Shown here: piece by piece, positions 32,966-37,550 of the stretch
Numbering within the stretch: position 1 is the stretch's first letter
Layout of the letters: each line of letters starts with the position of its first letter
From: an uncultured Lachnospiraceae bacterium
GTDB taxonomy: Bacteria; Bacillota; Clostridia; Lachnospirales; Lachnospiraceae
Assembly (NCBI GenBank): GCA_947169235.1
Contig: CAMVOY010000018.1
Location: forward strand, 1 to 39,750
Length of the DNA: 39,750 nt
Reading direction: 5' to 3'
Notes under the pieces: model-generated
What the model saw: only the letters and a program-made list of their open reading frames with translations
Told to the model about the DNA's origin: nothing
Database searches by the model: none
Made by a program: the position numbers and the translations under genes

Positions 32966-34588
32966 TTACTTTAGTTTACTAATAAACCATTTACCCGCGG
33001 ATGTCAGATCGCTCTTCTTAAAACCACCGGTCTTATTGCACGACGACTTAATAAGCGCCGAGCTCTCCGCTTTGTTACAAAGACTCCACGTAAAAAATCC
33101 GATCTTAAGCTTTTTAAAAAGCTTGATCCAGGTGTTCGCACTGGTCTTATCAAGTGCTCCGTTTCCTGACGCATCGCAGATCGAGAATTCCGTGCAGAGG
33201 ATCGGAAGCTTTTTCTTGAACGCGTACTTAACCTTGTCTCTGATGTTATCCTTATGAGTAGCCGCATAAAAATGTATCGTGTAGCAGACATTTTTAGCAT
33301 ACTTTCCGGTCAGTCTGTCATTCGCTGCCGTGTCAACGTCCTGTGACCAGGTCGGCGTTCCGACAACTATTATATTCTTGGAATACTTTCTGATGATCGG
33401 TATGATCTTCTTTGCGTATTTCTTTACGTCCTTCCATTCACAACCGTTTGGCTCATTACATATCTCGAATATAACGTTTTTGGTCTTGCCGTATTTTTTT
33501 GCAAAATGCTTGAAAAACTTCTTTGCTTTTGATGTGGTCATCGTTGGATTGTTTTCCATGAGGATGTGCCAATCGATGATGGCATACATACCAAGCTCGG
33601 TCGCTGCTTTCACGCCCTTGTCGATCGTCTTCCAGTCCTTGGAGGGGTTATACATCTCACCGCCCTCACTGGTATAGCAGGCAAGTCTGACTGCGTTTGC
33701 TCCCCATTTTTTAAAGCTCTTAAACGCTGACTTATTTACGTACTGAGGGAACCATGCGATACCATGCGTGCTCACGCCTTTTAGCTTGAAAGATTTGCCA
33801 CTCTCATCTACTATATATCTTCCTTTTATCTTCAGTCTGCCGTGCTTTTTGAACTGATTTCCGCCCGTGACTACGGCATCCTCGATCTCATCGTCCGGAT
33901 CAACCTCAGCATCCTCCGCTCCGGGCGAAGCTGATGCATTCGGATCATCTTGATTCGGGTTCTTTGTTGCGGCAGGTGCCGGTGTTGCATCAGCATCAAC
34001 AAGCTCACCTGACAACTTGTATGCAGCCGGGAAGCCGTCAAAGTTTTTCTGCCCGTTGAAACCGAACTCTACTGTCTTTCCGACCTCGATATCACGATTC
34101 CAGTCCTCACTGCTCTTAACTACATATCCTCCGACATCAGTTCCCGAAAACTGTGCATTCCATATGGACATGATGCCGCACGGAAGGCTGAACTCAACCT
34201 CCCAGTTTCTGATCTTTTTTACACCGGTATTCTCAATAACAACATTGGCAGTAAATCCGCCCTCCCATGTATTCTGCAGCTGGAAGGTGATGTCGAATCC
34301 GTCTCCCTTAAACGTGTTTTCTTTGGTCTTGCCGTCCCACGGTTCAGCCTTCTTACTCTCGGCTGTCTCGTCGCCGCCCAGACTTACCGTCTCAGGCTTT
34401 TTCTCCCCAAACGTTGCAGACTTGGGAGTGTCCTCGTCCTCAACGACCGTGATCGGCTCAGGCAGCTTGTATGTACCGCCATTCGACTCACCGCTGAGCG
34501 CCTCAGACTGCTGACCGCAACCGGTTACCACCATCGCTACGATCAGTAGCAAGCTCACCCGTCCGGCAAACCTTCTACCTTTACTCAT
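32966..34588 (-). CDS. GH5 endoglucanase lipoprotein with CBM2-like domain
   Basis: The protein has 540 residues. The N-terminal lipoprotein signal ends VTGC with C24, so it is exported and lipid-anchored. A CBM2-like domain spans about residues 90-200 (NTWEGGFTANVVIENTG, IRNWEVEFSLP, and NGQKNFDGFPAAY). An Ala/Pro/Asp linker follows, then a GH5 catalytic domain from about 255. The acid/base is E379 in ICNEPNG and the nucleophile is E467 in CTEFS. RLACYTSEGG and HFYAATH also match subfamily 2 style cellulases. The substrate is beta-1,4-glucan. The ATG at 34586-34588 follows AAGGAG. The catalytic domain is very lysine-rich. The gene shows no linked transporter. Confidence 0.93.
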   Translation of the reverse strand: MSKGRRFAGRVSLLLIVAMVVTGCGQQSEALSGESNGGTYKLPEPITVVEDEDTPKSATFGEKKPETVSLGGDETAESKKAEPWDGKTKENTFKGDGFDITFQLQNTWEGGFTANVVIENTGVKKIRNWEVEFSLPCGIMSIWNAQFSGTDVGGYVVKSSEDWNRDIEVGKTVEFGFNGQKNFDGFPAAYKLSGELVDADATPAPAATKNPNQDDPNASASPGAEDAEVDPDDEIEDAVVTGGNQFKKHGRLKIKGRYIVDESGKSFKLKGVSTHGIAWFPQYVNKSAFKSFKKWGANAVRLACYTSEGGEMYNPSKDWKTIDKGVKAATELGMYAIIDWHILMENNPTMTTSKAKKFFKHFAKKYGKTKNVIFEICNEPNGCEWKDVKKYAKKIIPIIRKYSKNIIVVGTPTWSQDVDTAANDRLTGKYAKNVCYTIHFYAATHKDNIRDKVKYAFKKKLPILCTEFSICDASGNGALDKTSANTWIKLFKKLKIGFFTWSLCNKAESSALIKSSCNKTGGFKKSDLTSAGKWFISKLK

Positions 34589-34698
34589 ATAATCTTTCTC
34601 CTTATTTATGTTTTTAGATCTTGCCACATCTTATTCGTACAGAACTGCTCCAACGCTCCGTATGCCCTCACAGATATACACTTTCATCACGCAGGCTA

Positions 34699-35976
34699 CT
34701 ACGTTCTCAGTTTTTTAACCGAATCAATAAGTATATCCTGATTCATATAGACATAGAGCAACTTACTATAGTCATATTCACGTAAGGCTTCTATGTCCTC
34801 ATCATCCATCACCGCATTCCTGAACGTATCGATATAGACCTTCTCGAGGCTCAGATCCTTGACCTGAAAAATATTCTCACACAGTTCGAATACGACATCG
34901 GCATCATCCGGTTTGTCGCACGGGATCATCTGCGGGGCTTCCTTTTCAAAGAAGTTCCGCAGATACTGCGCATCATCTTCGAATCCTGTATCAACCAGAT
35001 AGTAGCTTTTTTTATTTCTGATGAACGCGATCAGTTTGTCATCATTTGCATCATTCTCAAGTATTCGTCCCTCTCCGGCCTTGCCTCTCACACCGGTCAA
35101 TGCATCCTGATAAGCAAGAGCTATAGACGTTTTGATATTGTGCTCATTTCTGTACATGCACTCATACATCGCGTCAAAAAACGCACTGAGTATCTGATAG
35201 CTCATCTCATCGAGCTTCTCCTCCGGCGTAAACCTGAGGAAAAAGTTCGTCCTGTTTCTCCACATATAATAATTGATAAAGGTATTCGGTCTGCGAACGA
35301 TAGCACCCATCTGGTGTACGGCTTTTGCGTCTGCCAAAGTCACAACCTTAAACCCTGCAAGGTGGATCCTGTGACCCCACTCCATATCATCCCAGTAAAT
35401 GAAGTTCGACTCCGGCATGATACCGACCTCAGGTTTTCTAGCCACGTCGCCTCGCACCATAACCGCGCATGTAGCCACGGTATCACAGTCTATGATATCC
35501 GGCAAAGATCCATCCTCCGGCTGATCCGCCCCGATGGTCACCGCCGAGCAGTGATCAAAATCGATCTTCAGTCCGCTCTGCTGTATGACACCCGGCATCT
35601 GCATGTGATAGACTCTGCATCCTGCCATCCCGACATCGGGATTTGCTTCCATATAATCATATAAAACTTTCAGCGCATTCTCATCAACCTGCGCATCATC
35701 ATCCAAGCAGAAAAAGTATTTATATCCGTTATCCCTTACGTACTTAAGCCCCGTATTAAATCCACCCGAACCGCCGAGGTTCTCACTGTTCTCAAACAGA
35801 GTGATCTCATCGCCGTAGGTAGACTTTAGTGCGTCTGCACTTCCATCCGAAGAAGCATTATCGACAACAAAAATATCCGGAGTCACACCCACGCTCTCCT
35901 GAACACTCTTCACACTCTCCAGCACGAAGTCTTTTTTGTTGAAATTGCAGATAACAACAGCGATATCTTTGCTCAT
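34699..35976 (-). CDS. GT2-family glycosyltransferase
   Basis: This 425-residue cytoplasmic or membrane-associated enzyme transfers sugar from a nucleotide donor. The GT-A fold starts MSKDIAVVICNFNKKDFVLE. DNASSDGSADAL, NLGGSGGFNTGLKY and the metal site FCLDDDAQVDEN follow, and WGHRIHLAGFK and a late INYYMWRNRTNFFLR segment complete the core. The layout resembles rhamnosyl- or galactofuranosyltransferase-like GT2 proteins such as GlfT2 (family knowledge); the donor is not determined. The roughly 140 C-terminal residues have no family I recognise. The start has GGAGG at four bases. Confidence 0.88.
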   Translation of the reverse strand: MSKDIAVVICNFNKKDFVLESVKSVQESVGVTPDIFVVDNASSDGSADALKSTYGDEITLFENSENLGGSGGFNTGLKYVRDNGYKYFFCLDDDAQVDENALKVLYDYMEANPDVGMAGCRVYHMQMPGVIQQSGLKIDFDHCSAVTIGADQPEDGSLPDIIDCDTVATCAVMVRGDVARKPEVGIMPESNFIYWDDMEWGHRIHLAGFKVVTLADAKAVHQMGAIVRRPNTFINYYMWRNRTNFFLRFTPEEKLDEMSYQILSAFFDAMYECMYRNEHNIKTSIALAYQDALTGVRGKAGEGRILENDANDDKLIAFIRNKKSYYLVDTGFEDDAQYLRNFFEKEAPQMIPCDKPDDADVVFELCENIFQVKDLSLEKVYIDTFRNAVMDDEDIEALREYDYSKLLYVYMNQDILIDSVKKLRT

Positions 35977-36033: not shown

Positions 36034-36062
36034 ATTTTATCACATTTACGCCATTTTTACAA
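36034..36062 (-). promoter_or_regulatory. Possible promoter of the GT2 gene
   Basis: TTGTAA (36057-36062) and TAAAAT (36034-36039) on the minus strand are spaced 17 bases. A TATAAT box at 36013-36018 is an alternative -10 with a weak -35. Confidence 0.5.
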
Positions 36063-36072
36063 TAAAAACTTA

Positions 36073-36331
36073 GCGGAAGCAGAGTCAGTTCCGACCAAAC
36101 TCCTCTTTTTTGTTGTTTGGTCGGAACAATTTCATTACTTATTTTTTTCTTTCACATCTCAAAACAGGGTGTTTTCCGACCAAAACAGACAAAAACCATT
36201 TTAGTCGGAACTGACTCTGTTTCCGCGTTCTCCGACAACCGGAACAAAGAATCAAATCTCCGACCAAACTCGTTAAATCCCGCATTTGGTCGGAATCGAC
36301 TCTGCTTCCACCCTTCCACCCCGACCAAACC
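36073..36331. repeat. Cluster of inverted TCCGACCAAA repeats
   Basis: Seven copies of a CCGACCAAA-type core occur in this 259-base stretch, alternating in orientation: 36090-36099 (+), 36116-36126 (-), 36172-36185 (+), 36199-36210 (-), 36259-36268 (+), 36285-36295 (-) and 36320-36329 (+). Three of them (36075-36099, 36199-36224, 36285-36309) carry an extra GGAAGCAGAGTC-type arm. The first and fourth copies match over 23 bases with one mismatch and could close an outer stem around the inner ones. There is no real gene in the 35977-36500 gap. Confidence 0.85.
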
Positions 36332-36404: not shown

Positions 36405-36438
36405 ACCGGAGGTGCTTAAGCACCTCCGGTTTCCTTTT
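36405..36438 (+). terminator. 26-bp perfect palindrome with T-rich tail on plus strand
   Basis: 36405-36430 is fully self-complementary (half ACCGGAGGTGCTT). On the plus strand it is followed by TTCCTTTTC, giving a possible terminator for a plus-strand transcript from the repeat cluster. It lies next to the etfA terminator. Confidence 0.5.
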
Positions 36439-36439
36439 C

Positions 36440-36473
36440 AAAAAAACGGGATGCTCATACGAGCATCCCGTTT
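36440..36473 (-). terminator. Terminator of the butyrate operon after etfA
   Basis: CGGGATGCTC (36447-36456) and GAGCATCCCG (36461-36470) plus three A/T pairs make a 13-bp stem with a 4-base loop, followed on the minus strand by U residues (A36440-36446, three of which pair). It lies 27 bases after the etfA stop. Confidence 0.9.
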
Positions 36474-36500: not shown

Positions 36501-37550
36501 TCAAGCCTTCTCCATCTCTGCCTTAACCATGTCAGTCATCTGCGGAAGAATCTTGTTCAGGTCTCCTACGATACCATAGTCGGCAACGTCGAAGATCGGA
36601 GCATCCTCGTCCTTGTTGATAGCGATGATGAGGTCAGACTCCTCCATACCGGCTACGTGCTGAATAGCACCTGAGATACCGATAGCGAAGTAAACGTTCG
36701 GGCGAACAGTCTTACCTGTCTGTCCTACCTGACGCTCCTGTGGAAGCCAGCCGTTCTCTACGACTGCACGTGAGCAACTCACAGTTCCGCCGATAACCTC
36801 AGCGAAGTTCTCAAGGAGTTTGAAGTTCTCTGCAGAACCAACTCCACGTCCGCCTGATACGAGTATCTTTGCATCCATGATATCAACAGTGGAAGCAACC
36901 TTCTTAACCACATCCTGGATCTCCACATAACGATTATTCGGTGTGAATCCCGGATTGAACTCGATGACATCAGCCTTAGCGCCCTTTTTCGGCTCGATCT
37001 TCTGCATAACGCCCGGACGTACTGTAGCCATCTGAGGACGGTTGTACGGGCAGGCGATCGTAGCGATCGTGTTACCGCCGAATGCAGGACGGGTCATGAG
37101 AAGCTGTTTCTCGATGTCCGTGTTAGCTGCGTTGTCATGGAAAGTACCGATCTCGAGTACTGTACAGTCAGCTGTAAGACCTGTAGCCACACGAGCTGAA
37201 ACCGTAGGACCTAAGTCACGACCGATCGGTGTAGCACCTACGATCATGATCTCCGGCTTGTACTCCTTGATAACAGAAGCCAATGCATGAGCATACGGCT
37301 CTGTACGATAATCCTTAAGCTCAGGATCATCGATAACGATTACATGATCCGCACCGTACTCTGCGAGCGAATCAGCTTTATCTTTGATTCCGGATCCGAT
37401 AAGTACAGCTGTCACGTCCTGTGAAAGATCAGCTGCCAGATCCTTTGCTTTGCCAAGTAATTCAAAGGCGATACTTCCGATAACACCGTCGACCTGCTCA
37501 GCAAAGACATAAACGCCCTTATATTCTTCAATATTCGGTGTATTAGCCAT
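36501..37550 (-). CDS. etfA: Electron transfer flavoprotein alpha subunit
   Basis: This 349-residue FAD-binding subunit forms a heterodimer with EtfB and, with Bcd, couples crotonyl-CoA reduction to ferredoxin reduction (electron bifurcation, known for clostridial complexes). The C-terminal FAD domain shows LVSGGRGVGS, SRAVVENGWLP, VGQTGKTVRPNVYFAIGISG, and AIQHVAGMEESDLIIAINKD. The N-terminal domain has GATPIGRDLGPTVSAR. The ATG has GGAGGG. It is last in the hbd-bcd-etfB-etfA series, 13 bases after etfB. Confidence 0.96.
   Translation of the reverse strand: MANTPNIEEYKGVYVFAEQVDGVIGSIAFELLGKAKDLAADLSQDVTAVLIGSGIKDKADSLAEYGADHVIVIDDPELKDYRTEPYAHALASVIKEYKPEIMIVGATPIGRDLGPTVSARVATGLTADCTVLEIGTFHDNAANTDIEKQLLMTRPAFGGNTIATIACPYNRPQMATVRPGVMQKIEPKKGAKADVIEFNPGFTPNNRYVEIQDVVKKVASTVDIMDAKILVSGGRGVGSAENFKLLENFAEVIGGTVSCSRAVVENGWLPQERQVGQTGKTVRPNVYFAIGISGAIQHVAGMEESDLIIAINKDEDAPIFDVADYGIVGDLNKILPQMTDMVKAEMEKA

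Follow-up and report, generated by a model that had tools for sequence, protein, structure and literature searches.

The window, by which we mean the whole stretch of 39,750 nucleotides that was analysed, carries a cluster of three palindromic units of 37-38 bp between a glycosyltransferase gene and etfA. The units have the form TTCCGAC-N23/24-GTCGGAA, with CTCCGAC in the third, and are accompanied by a lone degenerate half-site (Table 1). A family 5 cellulase with a CBM2 module is found at 32966-34627. Past etfA there are two perfect inverted repeats (36405-36430 and 36444-36473); the terminator scan called none here, yet in sequence these repeats resemble terminators for the acyl-CoA dehydrogenase-etfBA genes.

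Table 1. Features at the array and on its two flanks, in window positions
Feature	Positions	Strand	Remarks
Glycosyltransferase family 2 gene	34699..35976	-	One flank of the array
Sigma-70-like promoter match	36034..36062	-	Weak (1 vs 0.7 in shuffles); 5' of the glycosyltransferase gene, immediately left of the array
Outer box GGAAGCAGAGTC, exact	36075..36086	+	Starts 14 bp ahead of the first heptamer
Unit 1, palindromic site TTCCGACCAAA..TTTGGTCGGAA, 38 bp	36089..36126	.	
Unit 2, TTCCGACCAAA..TTTAGTCGGAA, 37 bp	36174..36210	.	Starts 85 bp (about 8 turns) past the start of unit 1
Outer box GGAAACAGAGTC, one mismatch to GGAAGCAGAGTC	36213..36224	-	
Unit 3, CTCCGACCAAA..TTTGGTCGGAA, 38 bp	36258..36295	.	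Starts 84 bp (8 turns) past the start of unit 2
Outer box GGAAGCAGAGTC, exact	36298..36309	-	
Degenerate lone half-site CCCGACCAAA	36320..36329	+	No recognised partner
etfA (electron transfer flavoprotein alpha)	36501..37550	-	Other flank of the array

Allowing one mismatch, the window contains seven matches to TCCGACCAAA, five of them exact and two with a single mismatch (TCCGACTAAA at 36200-36209 and CCCGACCAAA at 36320-36329), and all seven lie within 36090-36329. Their number per se is not extreme, as shuffles of all 39,750 bases held 2.76 on average and reached seven in 3 of 100 cases; what is striking is their confinement to 240 bp and their orientation, + - + - + - +, much as the first-pass annotation had described. 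The three GGAAGCAGAGTC-type arms that it reported are present as well, two exact and one with a mismatch. Because 29 of 100 shuffles had as many copies of GGAAGCAGAGTC at up to two mismatches as the five in the window, these arms are meaningful through their position only; a flank similar to the box at 36075..36086 is the consensus next to units in the window's species group. The outer stem proposed for two of the arms corresponds to a real long pairing, of 36075-36099 with 36285-36309, which extends over 25 nt at 92% complementarity rather than over 23 bases with one mismatch, and a second long pairing joins 36073-36108 with 36191-36226 (36 nt, 83% complementary). Unlike CRISPR arrays, the cluster has no near-identical repeats with unique spacers of constant length: its units are palindromic, their cores vary, and their spacings fall into several helical classes. 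The annotation had set aside both a CRISPR array and a known riboswitch; the window has no Rfam match at the gathering score.

Dispersal of the unit and the copy in the window

A unit confined to this one place would have refuted the first-pass annotation; instead, the unit proved to be dispersed both in the window's genome (G000) and in other genomes. The pattern TTCCKAC-N12..40-GTCGGAA has 43 forward matches in G000, at 14 places on 11 contigs, against a single match for the reversed control pattern; at least two units occur at 13 of these places, and a single unit, at the end of contig C32, at the remaining one. Strict-pattern scans were positive in 4 of 39 genomes of the genus; of 397 genomes sampled across the family, G000 itself was the single positive. 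A scan of one genome per species recovered 42 stretches with the TTCCGAC unit pattern in 20 genomes, of which 14 have arrays by the unit scan and 6 have lone matches only. The array genomes comprise the Lachnospiraceae P6B14, RUG381, SRR8387714_bin.5, RGIG4530 and RUG258, together with Mageeibacillus UBA1193, Eubacterium Tb.RUG.1 and seven Treponema/Spirochaetaceae MAGs, four of which bear the source labels rumen, reticulum or omasum.

The arrays of G000 lie partly at the same places as those of P6B14 (7 alignments), with numbers of units that are sometimes unequal (4 vs 1 at L064/L085). Over all 7 alignments, identities amount to 324/378 in heptamers and 231/295 in spacers; heptamers are better kept than spacers in five alignments, equally in one and less in one that is badly aligned, and the bad alignment at L064, with four units in G000 and one in P6B14, weakens this comparison. 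At one place in G000 (L061, C24:29121-30747), a single gene, which we take to encode a PHP-type phosphoesterase, is bracketed by an array and its inverted copy, and a corresponding layout is found in P6B14 (L119, L122). Near other Lachnospiraceae TTCCGAC arrays (L071/L074) are genes of DAHP synthase and prephenate-dehydratase type that are about 72% and 55% identical to their equivalents beside a TTCCGAC array in Treponema RGIG8218 (L101), a sequence similarity that hints at transfer between phyla.

Examination of the same gene order in related genomes bears on the origin of the window's own copy. Of 29 etfA loci from other genomes of the genus, 14 have a glycosyltransferase match adjoining etfA as in the window; the match is more distant in 3 and was not found in 12. 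In the 14 syntenic genomes, whose glycosyltransferases are 48-83% identical and are considered orthologous by position, the gap between the two matches is 85-185 bp long and free of units, as compared with 528 bp in G000; nor were units detected at any of the 29 etfA loci. Homology with G008 stops near the left edge of the array, and the alignment with G008 and G009 defines no target-site duplication. The nearest relatives by etfAB identity, G019 (97%) and G001 (94%), have different DNA on the array side of etfA. By sequence comparison the window array looks like an insertion, its gain being favoured by parsimony and undated.

A nuclease-like protein family beside the arrays

An all-against-all comparison of the ORFs neighbouring arrays in different lineages singled out one protein family, which adjoins arrays in P6B14, G024, RUG381, Treponema RGIG7872 and RGIG9695, Spirochaetaceae RUG13457 and Lachnospiraceae RGIG4530. 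The protein is a stand-alone one of about 280 aa with an N-terminal region of its own; it matched no Pfam family (six members) and no NCBIfam (five members) above cut-off, and a profile search returned no relative in the PDB. Its C-terminus matches the PADLOC PDC-S68 and PD-DEXK models, with best-model E values of 2e-23 to 1e-30 in five proteins, the PDC-S68 alignment covering only about the last 100-170 residues of the models (the PDC-S68 candidate has 1221 aa). Nine residues are invariant in 74/74 sequences (S171, K172, E174, D205, F206, E220, H221, G223 and Y230 in P6B14 numbering), and the C-terminal domain has the motifs S-K-x-E, PDF and EHxG. Set against the active-site residues of the PD-(D/E)XK superfamily (E; PD; D/E-x-K), the invariant E174, D205 and E220 are candidate equivalents, but the active-site lysine is not evident, as E220 is followed by H221 and there is no conserved lysine at that motif. 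From these motifs and the profile similarity, on which the fold assignment rests, we infer a PD-(D/E)XK-like protein with histidine at the expected position of the lysine.

In a sample of the family, matches at E <= 1e-15 occur in 97 of 299 genomes, eight of which have 5-8 matches each, and in a sample of the phylum (398 genomes) there are matches in 11, full-length in four, all from the same family, and domain-only in seven. One member searched against phages returned three partial matches, in short unannotated records, and another searched against plasmids returned nine matches to the nuclease domain, eight in records annotated as AAA ATPase/helicase and one unannotated. In both P6B14 and G024 the nuclease-like gene lies between two inverted arrays. 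The arrays at L075 (P6B14) and L080 (G024) flank an island of about 3.4 kb that holds a DUF362 ferredoxin-type gene, a second gene and the nuclease-like gene; relative to its flanks, the island has opposite orientations in the two genomes, suggesting from the sequence that it has been inverted between its arrays.

If the protein and the arrays belong together, distant homologues in genus members without TTCCGAC arrays would be predicted to adjoin arrays of other heptamers, and this is the case at five of eight loci: GGGCATG x15 (L137), TTACGGG x4 (L138), TACGGCC x10 (L139), TACGGCT x2 (L140) and GACGTGT x3 (L141). No array was found at L134, L135 and L136, two of which are near contig ends. 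An array was defined as at least two units of 30-45 bp within 450 bp, the heptamer arms being exactly inverted and the units differing from one another by no more than one mismatch. By this definition, 26 of the 46 gene loci that protein similarity had recovered have an array, as against 0 of 46 in each of three shuffled rounds; the 46 are the best matches listed from the genus (8), the family sample (30) and the phylum sample (8, six of them from G244). Arrays also occur at 19 of 23 further gene copies in array-positive genomes, which had been chosen for their TTCCGAC arrays; the 23 remain from 30 loci (26 with an array) after seven were dropped as array-known. In total, arrays adjoin 45 of 69 gene copies among the best matches listed, as against 3 of 40 control regions placed at round coordinates in the genomes of the first 46 loci, spirochaetes excluded (Fisher p = 1.5e-9). 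Further controls were all negative (0/29 etf loci, 0/8 RAYT loci and 0/7 domain-only relatives). One of the array-bearing control regions, in G244 (L206), has the heptamer TTACCTG, close to the TACCTGC of an array 797 bp downstream of one G244 gene (L185), and apparently represents a dispersed copy. Of the 45 arrays, 33 are upstream of the gene, 9 are downstream and 3 overlap it, the median distance being 107 bp; 24 of the 69 gene copies have no array by our definition, and larger windows around 20 of these 24 still yielded none.

The similarity of motifs rises with that of the proteins (rho 0.215, a value reached in 0 of 2000 permutations, for 44 arrays with motif-fetched loci excluded), and in the two pairs with more than 75% protein identity the motifs are closely similar. 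The link to specificity is loose: TTCCGAC is common to proteins merely 32-34% identical, and unlike motifs occur in some pairs at 57-60% protein identity (L258/L266 and L156/L169). Several gene copies with different heptamers can occupy one genome, as in G834 (TTCCGAC, TTCCCAT and CCCACTT), G835 and G839. In the cases examined, the heptamer beside a gene is also dispersed in that genome: G014 contains 46 units of TACGGCC, the heptamer of one of its genes, on 11 contigs, and the unit is absent from the genus's 38 other genomes. Protein matches number 1 to 10, fragments included, in 13 of the 14 TTCCGAC-array genomes, the exception being Tb.RUG.1, and none of the six genomes with lone matches has the protein. 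In G000, whose draft assembly consists of 106 contigs and has arrays close to the ends of several, no nuclease-like gene was detectable despite units at 14 places; in draft assemblies such as G000 and Tb.RUG.1, loss of the gene is indistinguishable from an assembly gap.

Geometry of the units

Arrays frequently consist of four units in a symmetric layout, with spacings such as 84-105-84, 85-116-85, 85-126-85 or 83-116-83. When unit spacings from five lineage groups are pooled (n = 130), they are periodic at 10.5 bp (R = 0.894, with the best fit at 10.54), and since these spacings are partly kin by descent it is relevant that R is 0.78 (p about 2e-10) when each of the 37 distinct values is counted once. 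Taken one by one, four of the groups have best periods of 10.50, 10.50, 10.75 and 10.30 and RUG381 (n = 17) has one of 9.95, and single values of 37.5, 132 and 200 bp depart from the 10.5-bp period. The 45 gene-linked arrays of other heptamers again show 10.5 bp (R = 0.731, p about 1.6e-16; n = 68 after similar values within each array were merged). The array at L137 (G038:C9) has 15 closely similar units, mostly 73-74 bp apart; such a long homogeneous array, as against the diverged units of G000, perhaps reflects recent amplification.

Within a unit the heptamer starts are 31 bp apart, and A/T tracts occur at about 8-11, 18-21 and 28-31. The tracts flanking the heptamers consist of AAA or TTT with unmatched halves: they are identical in only 17 of 49 G000 units, and they belong to the same class in 41% of these, vs 53% predicted by independence. 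Measured from the centre of the unit across the 45 arrays with differing heptamers, A/T content is above the locus mean (0.58) at distances of 0-2, 7-11 and 20-25 bp, but below that mean at 12-18 bp, the position of the heptamer. Because a stem needs matching tracts and these are unmatched, we read them as signals of bendability in duplex DNA; palindrome arms co-vary under protein dimers too. Taken together, the phased spacings and the unpaired A/T tracts suggest sites for a protein on duplex DNA rather than RNA hairpins.

These features help to choose among the three options that the first-pass annotation had offered. A multi-site protein-binding array is best supported, with spacings of n x 10.5 bp and A/T tracts about every 10 bp; a structured RNA is disfavoured by the unpaired tracts beside the heptamers, though the strand would fold strongly (z -10); and a dispersing element is supported by presence/absence and species-specific expansion, though no MITE hallmark such as a target-site duplication was detected. 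The partner gene family, which is our main finding, lay beyond what that annotation could have seen.

A proposed repeat-and-enzyme pair and its alternatives

We propose, with a probability of roughly 0.7, that the cluster in the window belongs, as one of several dispersed copies, to a repeat family specific to its genome, and that the units of this family are binding sites, on duplex DNA, of a dedicated PD-(D/E)XK-like protein of about 280 aa. Whereas the structure, phasing, gene linkage, diversity of heptamers, dispersal and presence/absence are observed, we infer binding, bending, assembly, autoregulation, cleavage and movement as the steps of its action: a protein dimer would read both heptamers of one bent unit, several dimers would assemble along a single face of the helix, arrays next to the gene would autoregulate it, and nuclease activity together with host repair might spread or maintain copies in intergenic DNA. 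The protein and its repeats would then be a selfish or semi-domesticated pair, comparable to RAYT and REP except that it acts on duplex DNA. The proposal is weakest at G000, in which the gene was not found, and at the 24 gene copies that have no array. The odds are slightly better than even that this is an undescribed two-part system, in which a stand-alone PD-(D/E)XK-like protein and dispersed, phased duplex arrays, with diversified heptamers and a constant architecture, form self-propagating mobile repeats of a non-transposase kind in Lachnospiraceae and host-associated spirochaetes.

RAYT proteins are HUH tyrosine transposases (PF01797), and the BIMEs of E. coli are clusters of palindromic units in alternating inverted orientation that have been proposed to bind DNA-bending proteins and gyrase. 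The ends of Tn7 and Mu carry several phased protein sites that are brought into one nucleoprotein complex. The accessible portions of two papers describe REP/REPIN-RAYT systems as short intergenic palindromes, often in inverted doublets or clusters, with related copies beside the gene of a dedicated enzyme (PMC3116915; PMC3733652). The present repeats are similar in being dispersed between genes and also adjoining their partner gene. A RAYT as the partner was rejected: of the 39 genus genomes, 10 carry PF01797, but none of the 4 with TTCCGAC arrays does, six partner proteins had no PF01797 match, and such arrays are absent from the eight RAYT loci mentioned above. By inspection, the half-site profiles of four TTCCGAC groups have no GTAG/CGTC tag as in REPs, and the phasing and unpaired tracts argue for duplex sites instead of the single-stranded hairpins that RAYTs recognise. 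The clusters resemble BIMEs in their alternating inverted palindromes but differ in sequence, in having a partner gene family and diversified heptamers, and in spacings near n x 10.5 bp. Unlike the ends of Tn7 and Mu, the arrays mostly stand alone, and no transposase is among the listed families of 116 array neighbours. The literature searched, in which subscription journals and preprints are poorly covered, yielded no published description of such a repeat-nuclease pair; this looks like a repeat-and-enzyme system of an undescribed kind, and its novelty is provisional.

Several features would be expected if the arrays were host sites for regulation or chromosome architecture, i.e., operators on which the nuclease-like protein, or some other protein, acts as a domesticated global regulator or organises the nucleoid, and which spread slowly, driven by the host. 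The arrays are intergenic, those beside the partner gene lie upstream of it in 33 of 45 cases, as would an autoregulatory operator, a weak promoter match lies directly beside the window array, and G000 shares array places with P6B14, with heptamers better kept in 5 of 7 alignments. We nevertheless consider this explanation unlikely: the residues of active-site type are invariant in 74/74 sequences, gene copies within a single genome (G834, G835, G839) have different heptamers beside them, and the window array is missing from 14/14 genomes of the same gene order. A Pfam search of the 116 array neighbours recovered ordinary genes; of 119 families, the 25 commonest have no more than four members each and include no obvious shared mobile or defence gene, transposase or cas gene.

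An improbable alternative is defence against phages or plasmids, in which a nuclease held or oriented on the arrays attacks DNA with the wrong sites, or is freed upon infection. The resemblance of the C-terminal domain to the nuclease domain of PDC-S68 would suit such a role, and an arms race would be in keeping with the patchy distribution, the multiplicity of copies and the diversified specificity. The resemblance, however, is confined to the last part of the 1221-aa candidate, the partner being a stand-alone protein of about 280 aa as opposed to a full-length one of about 1200 aa; the gene looks solitary, any one neighbour family being present at 6 of the 69 loci at most; and one pattern scan of viral_contigs found no TTCCGAC unit.

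We give little credence to an ordinary MITE mobilised by an unrelated transposase, with the nuclease-like gene as a frequent passenger or preferred target. The copies are dispersed and intergenic, have inverted outer boxes and vary in presence/absence, including the absence from the 14 syntenic genomes; the comparison with G008 and G009, as noted, defined no duplication. This account leaves aside that arrays accompany 45 of 69 genes found by protein similarity and that their heptamers tend to track the protein. Moreover, any other family adjoining the gene does so at no more than 6 of the 69 loci, and the number and spacing of units vary in near-whole helical turns, not as they would in one mobile sequence. 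Least probable is a structured RNA or terminator-type repeat with REP/BIME-like hairpins acting in transcripts, for which the strong fold and palindromic units would speak, but which is at odds with a 10.5-bp period between units that extends over about 4 to 16 turns and has, to our knowledge, no known role in RNA, with the unpaired A/T tracts, with arrays located also between divergent ORFs (L064, L071) and with the lack of Rfam matches in the window.

In the literature searched, as far as its sources were accessible, REP and its RAYT transposase are one main paradigm for interspersed palindromes with a dedicated enzyme. On our preferred reading, in which the arrays are duplex sites of the nuclease-like protein, an unrelated family would have arrived at a REP-like pattern on apparently duplex DNA, with many DNA words and a geometry of helical turns. 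The dozens of natural pairs of protein and site would serve for learning the specificity of PD-(D/E)XK proteins, and how repeats and a nuclease coexist without destruction of the chromosome is now testable. The pairing would also account for one kind of intergenic repeat found in treponemes and in the Lachnospiraceae of the gut.
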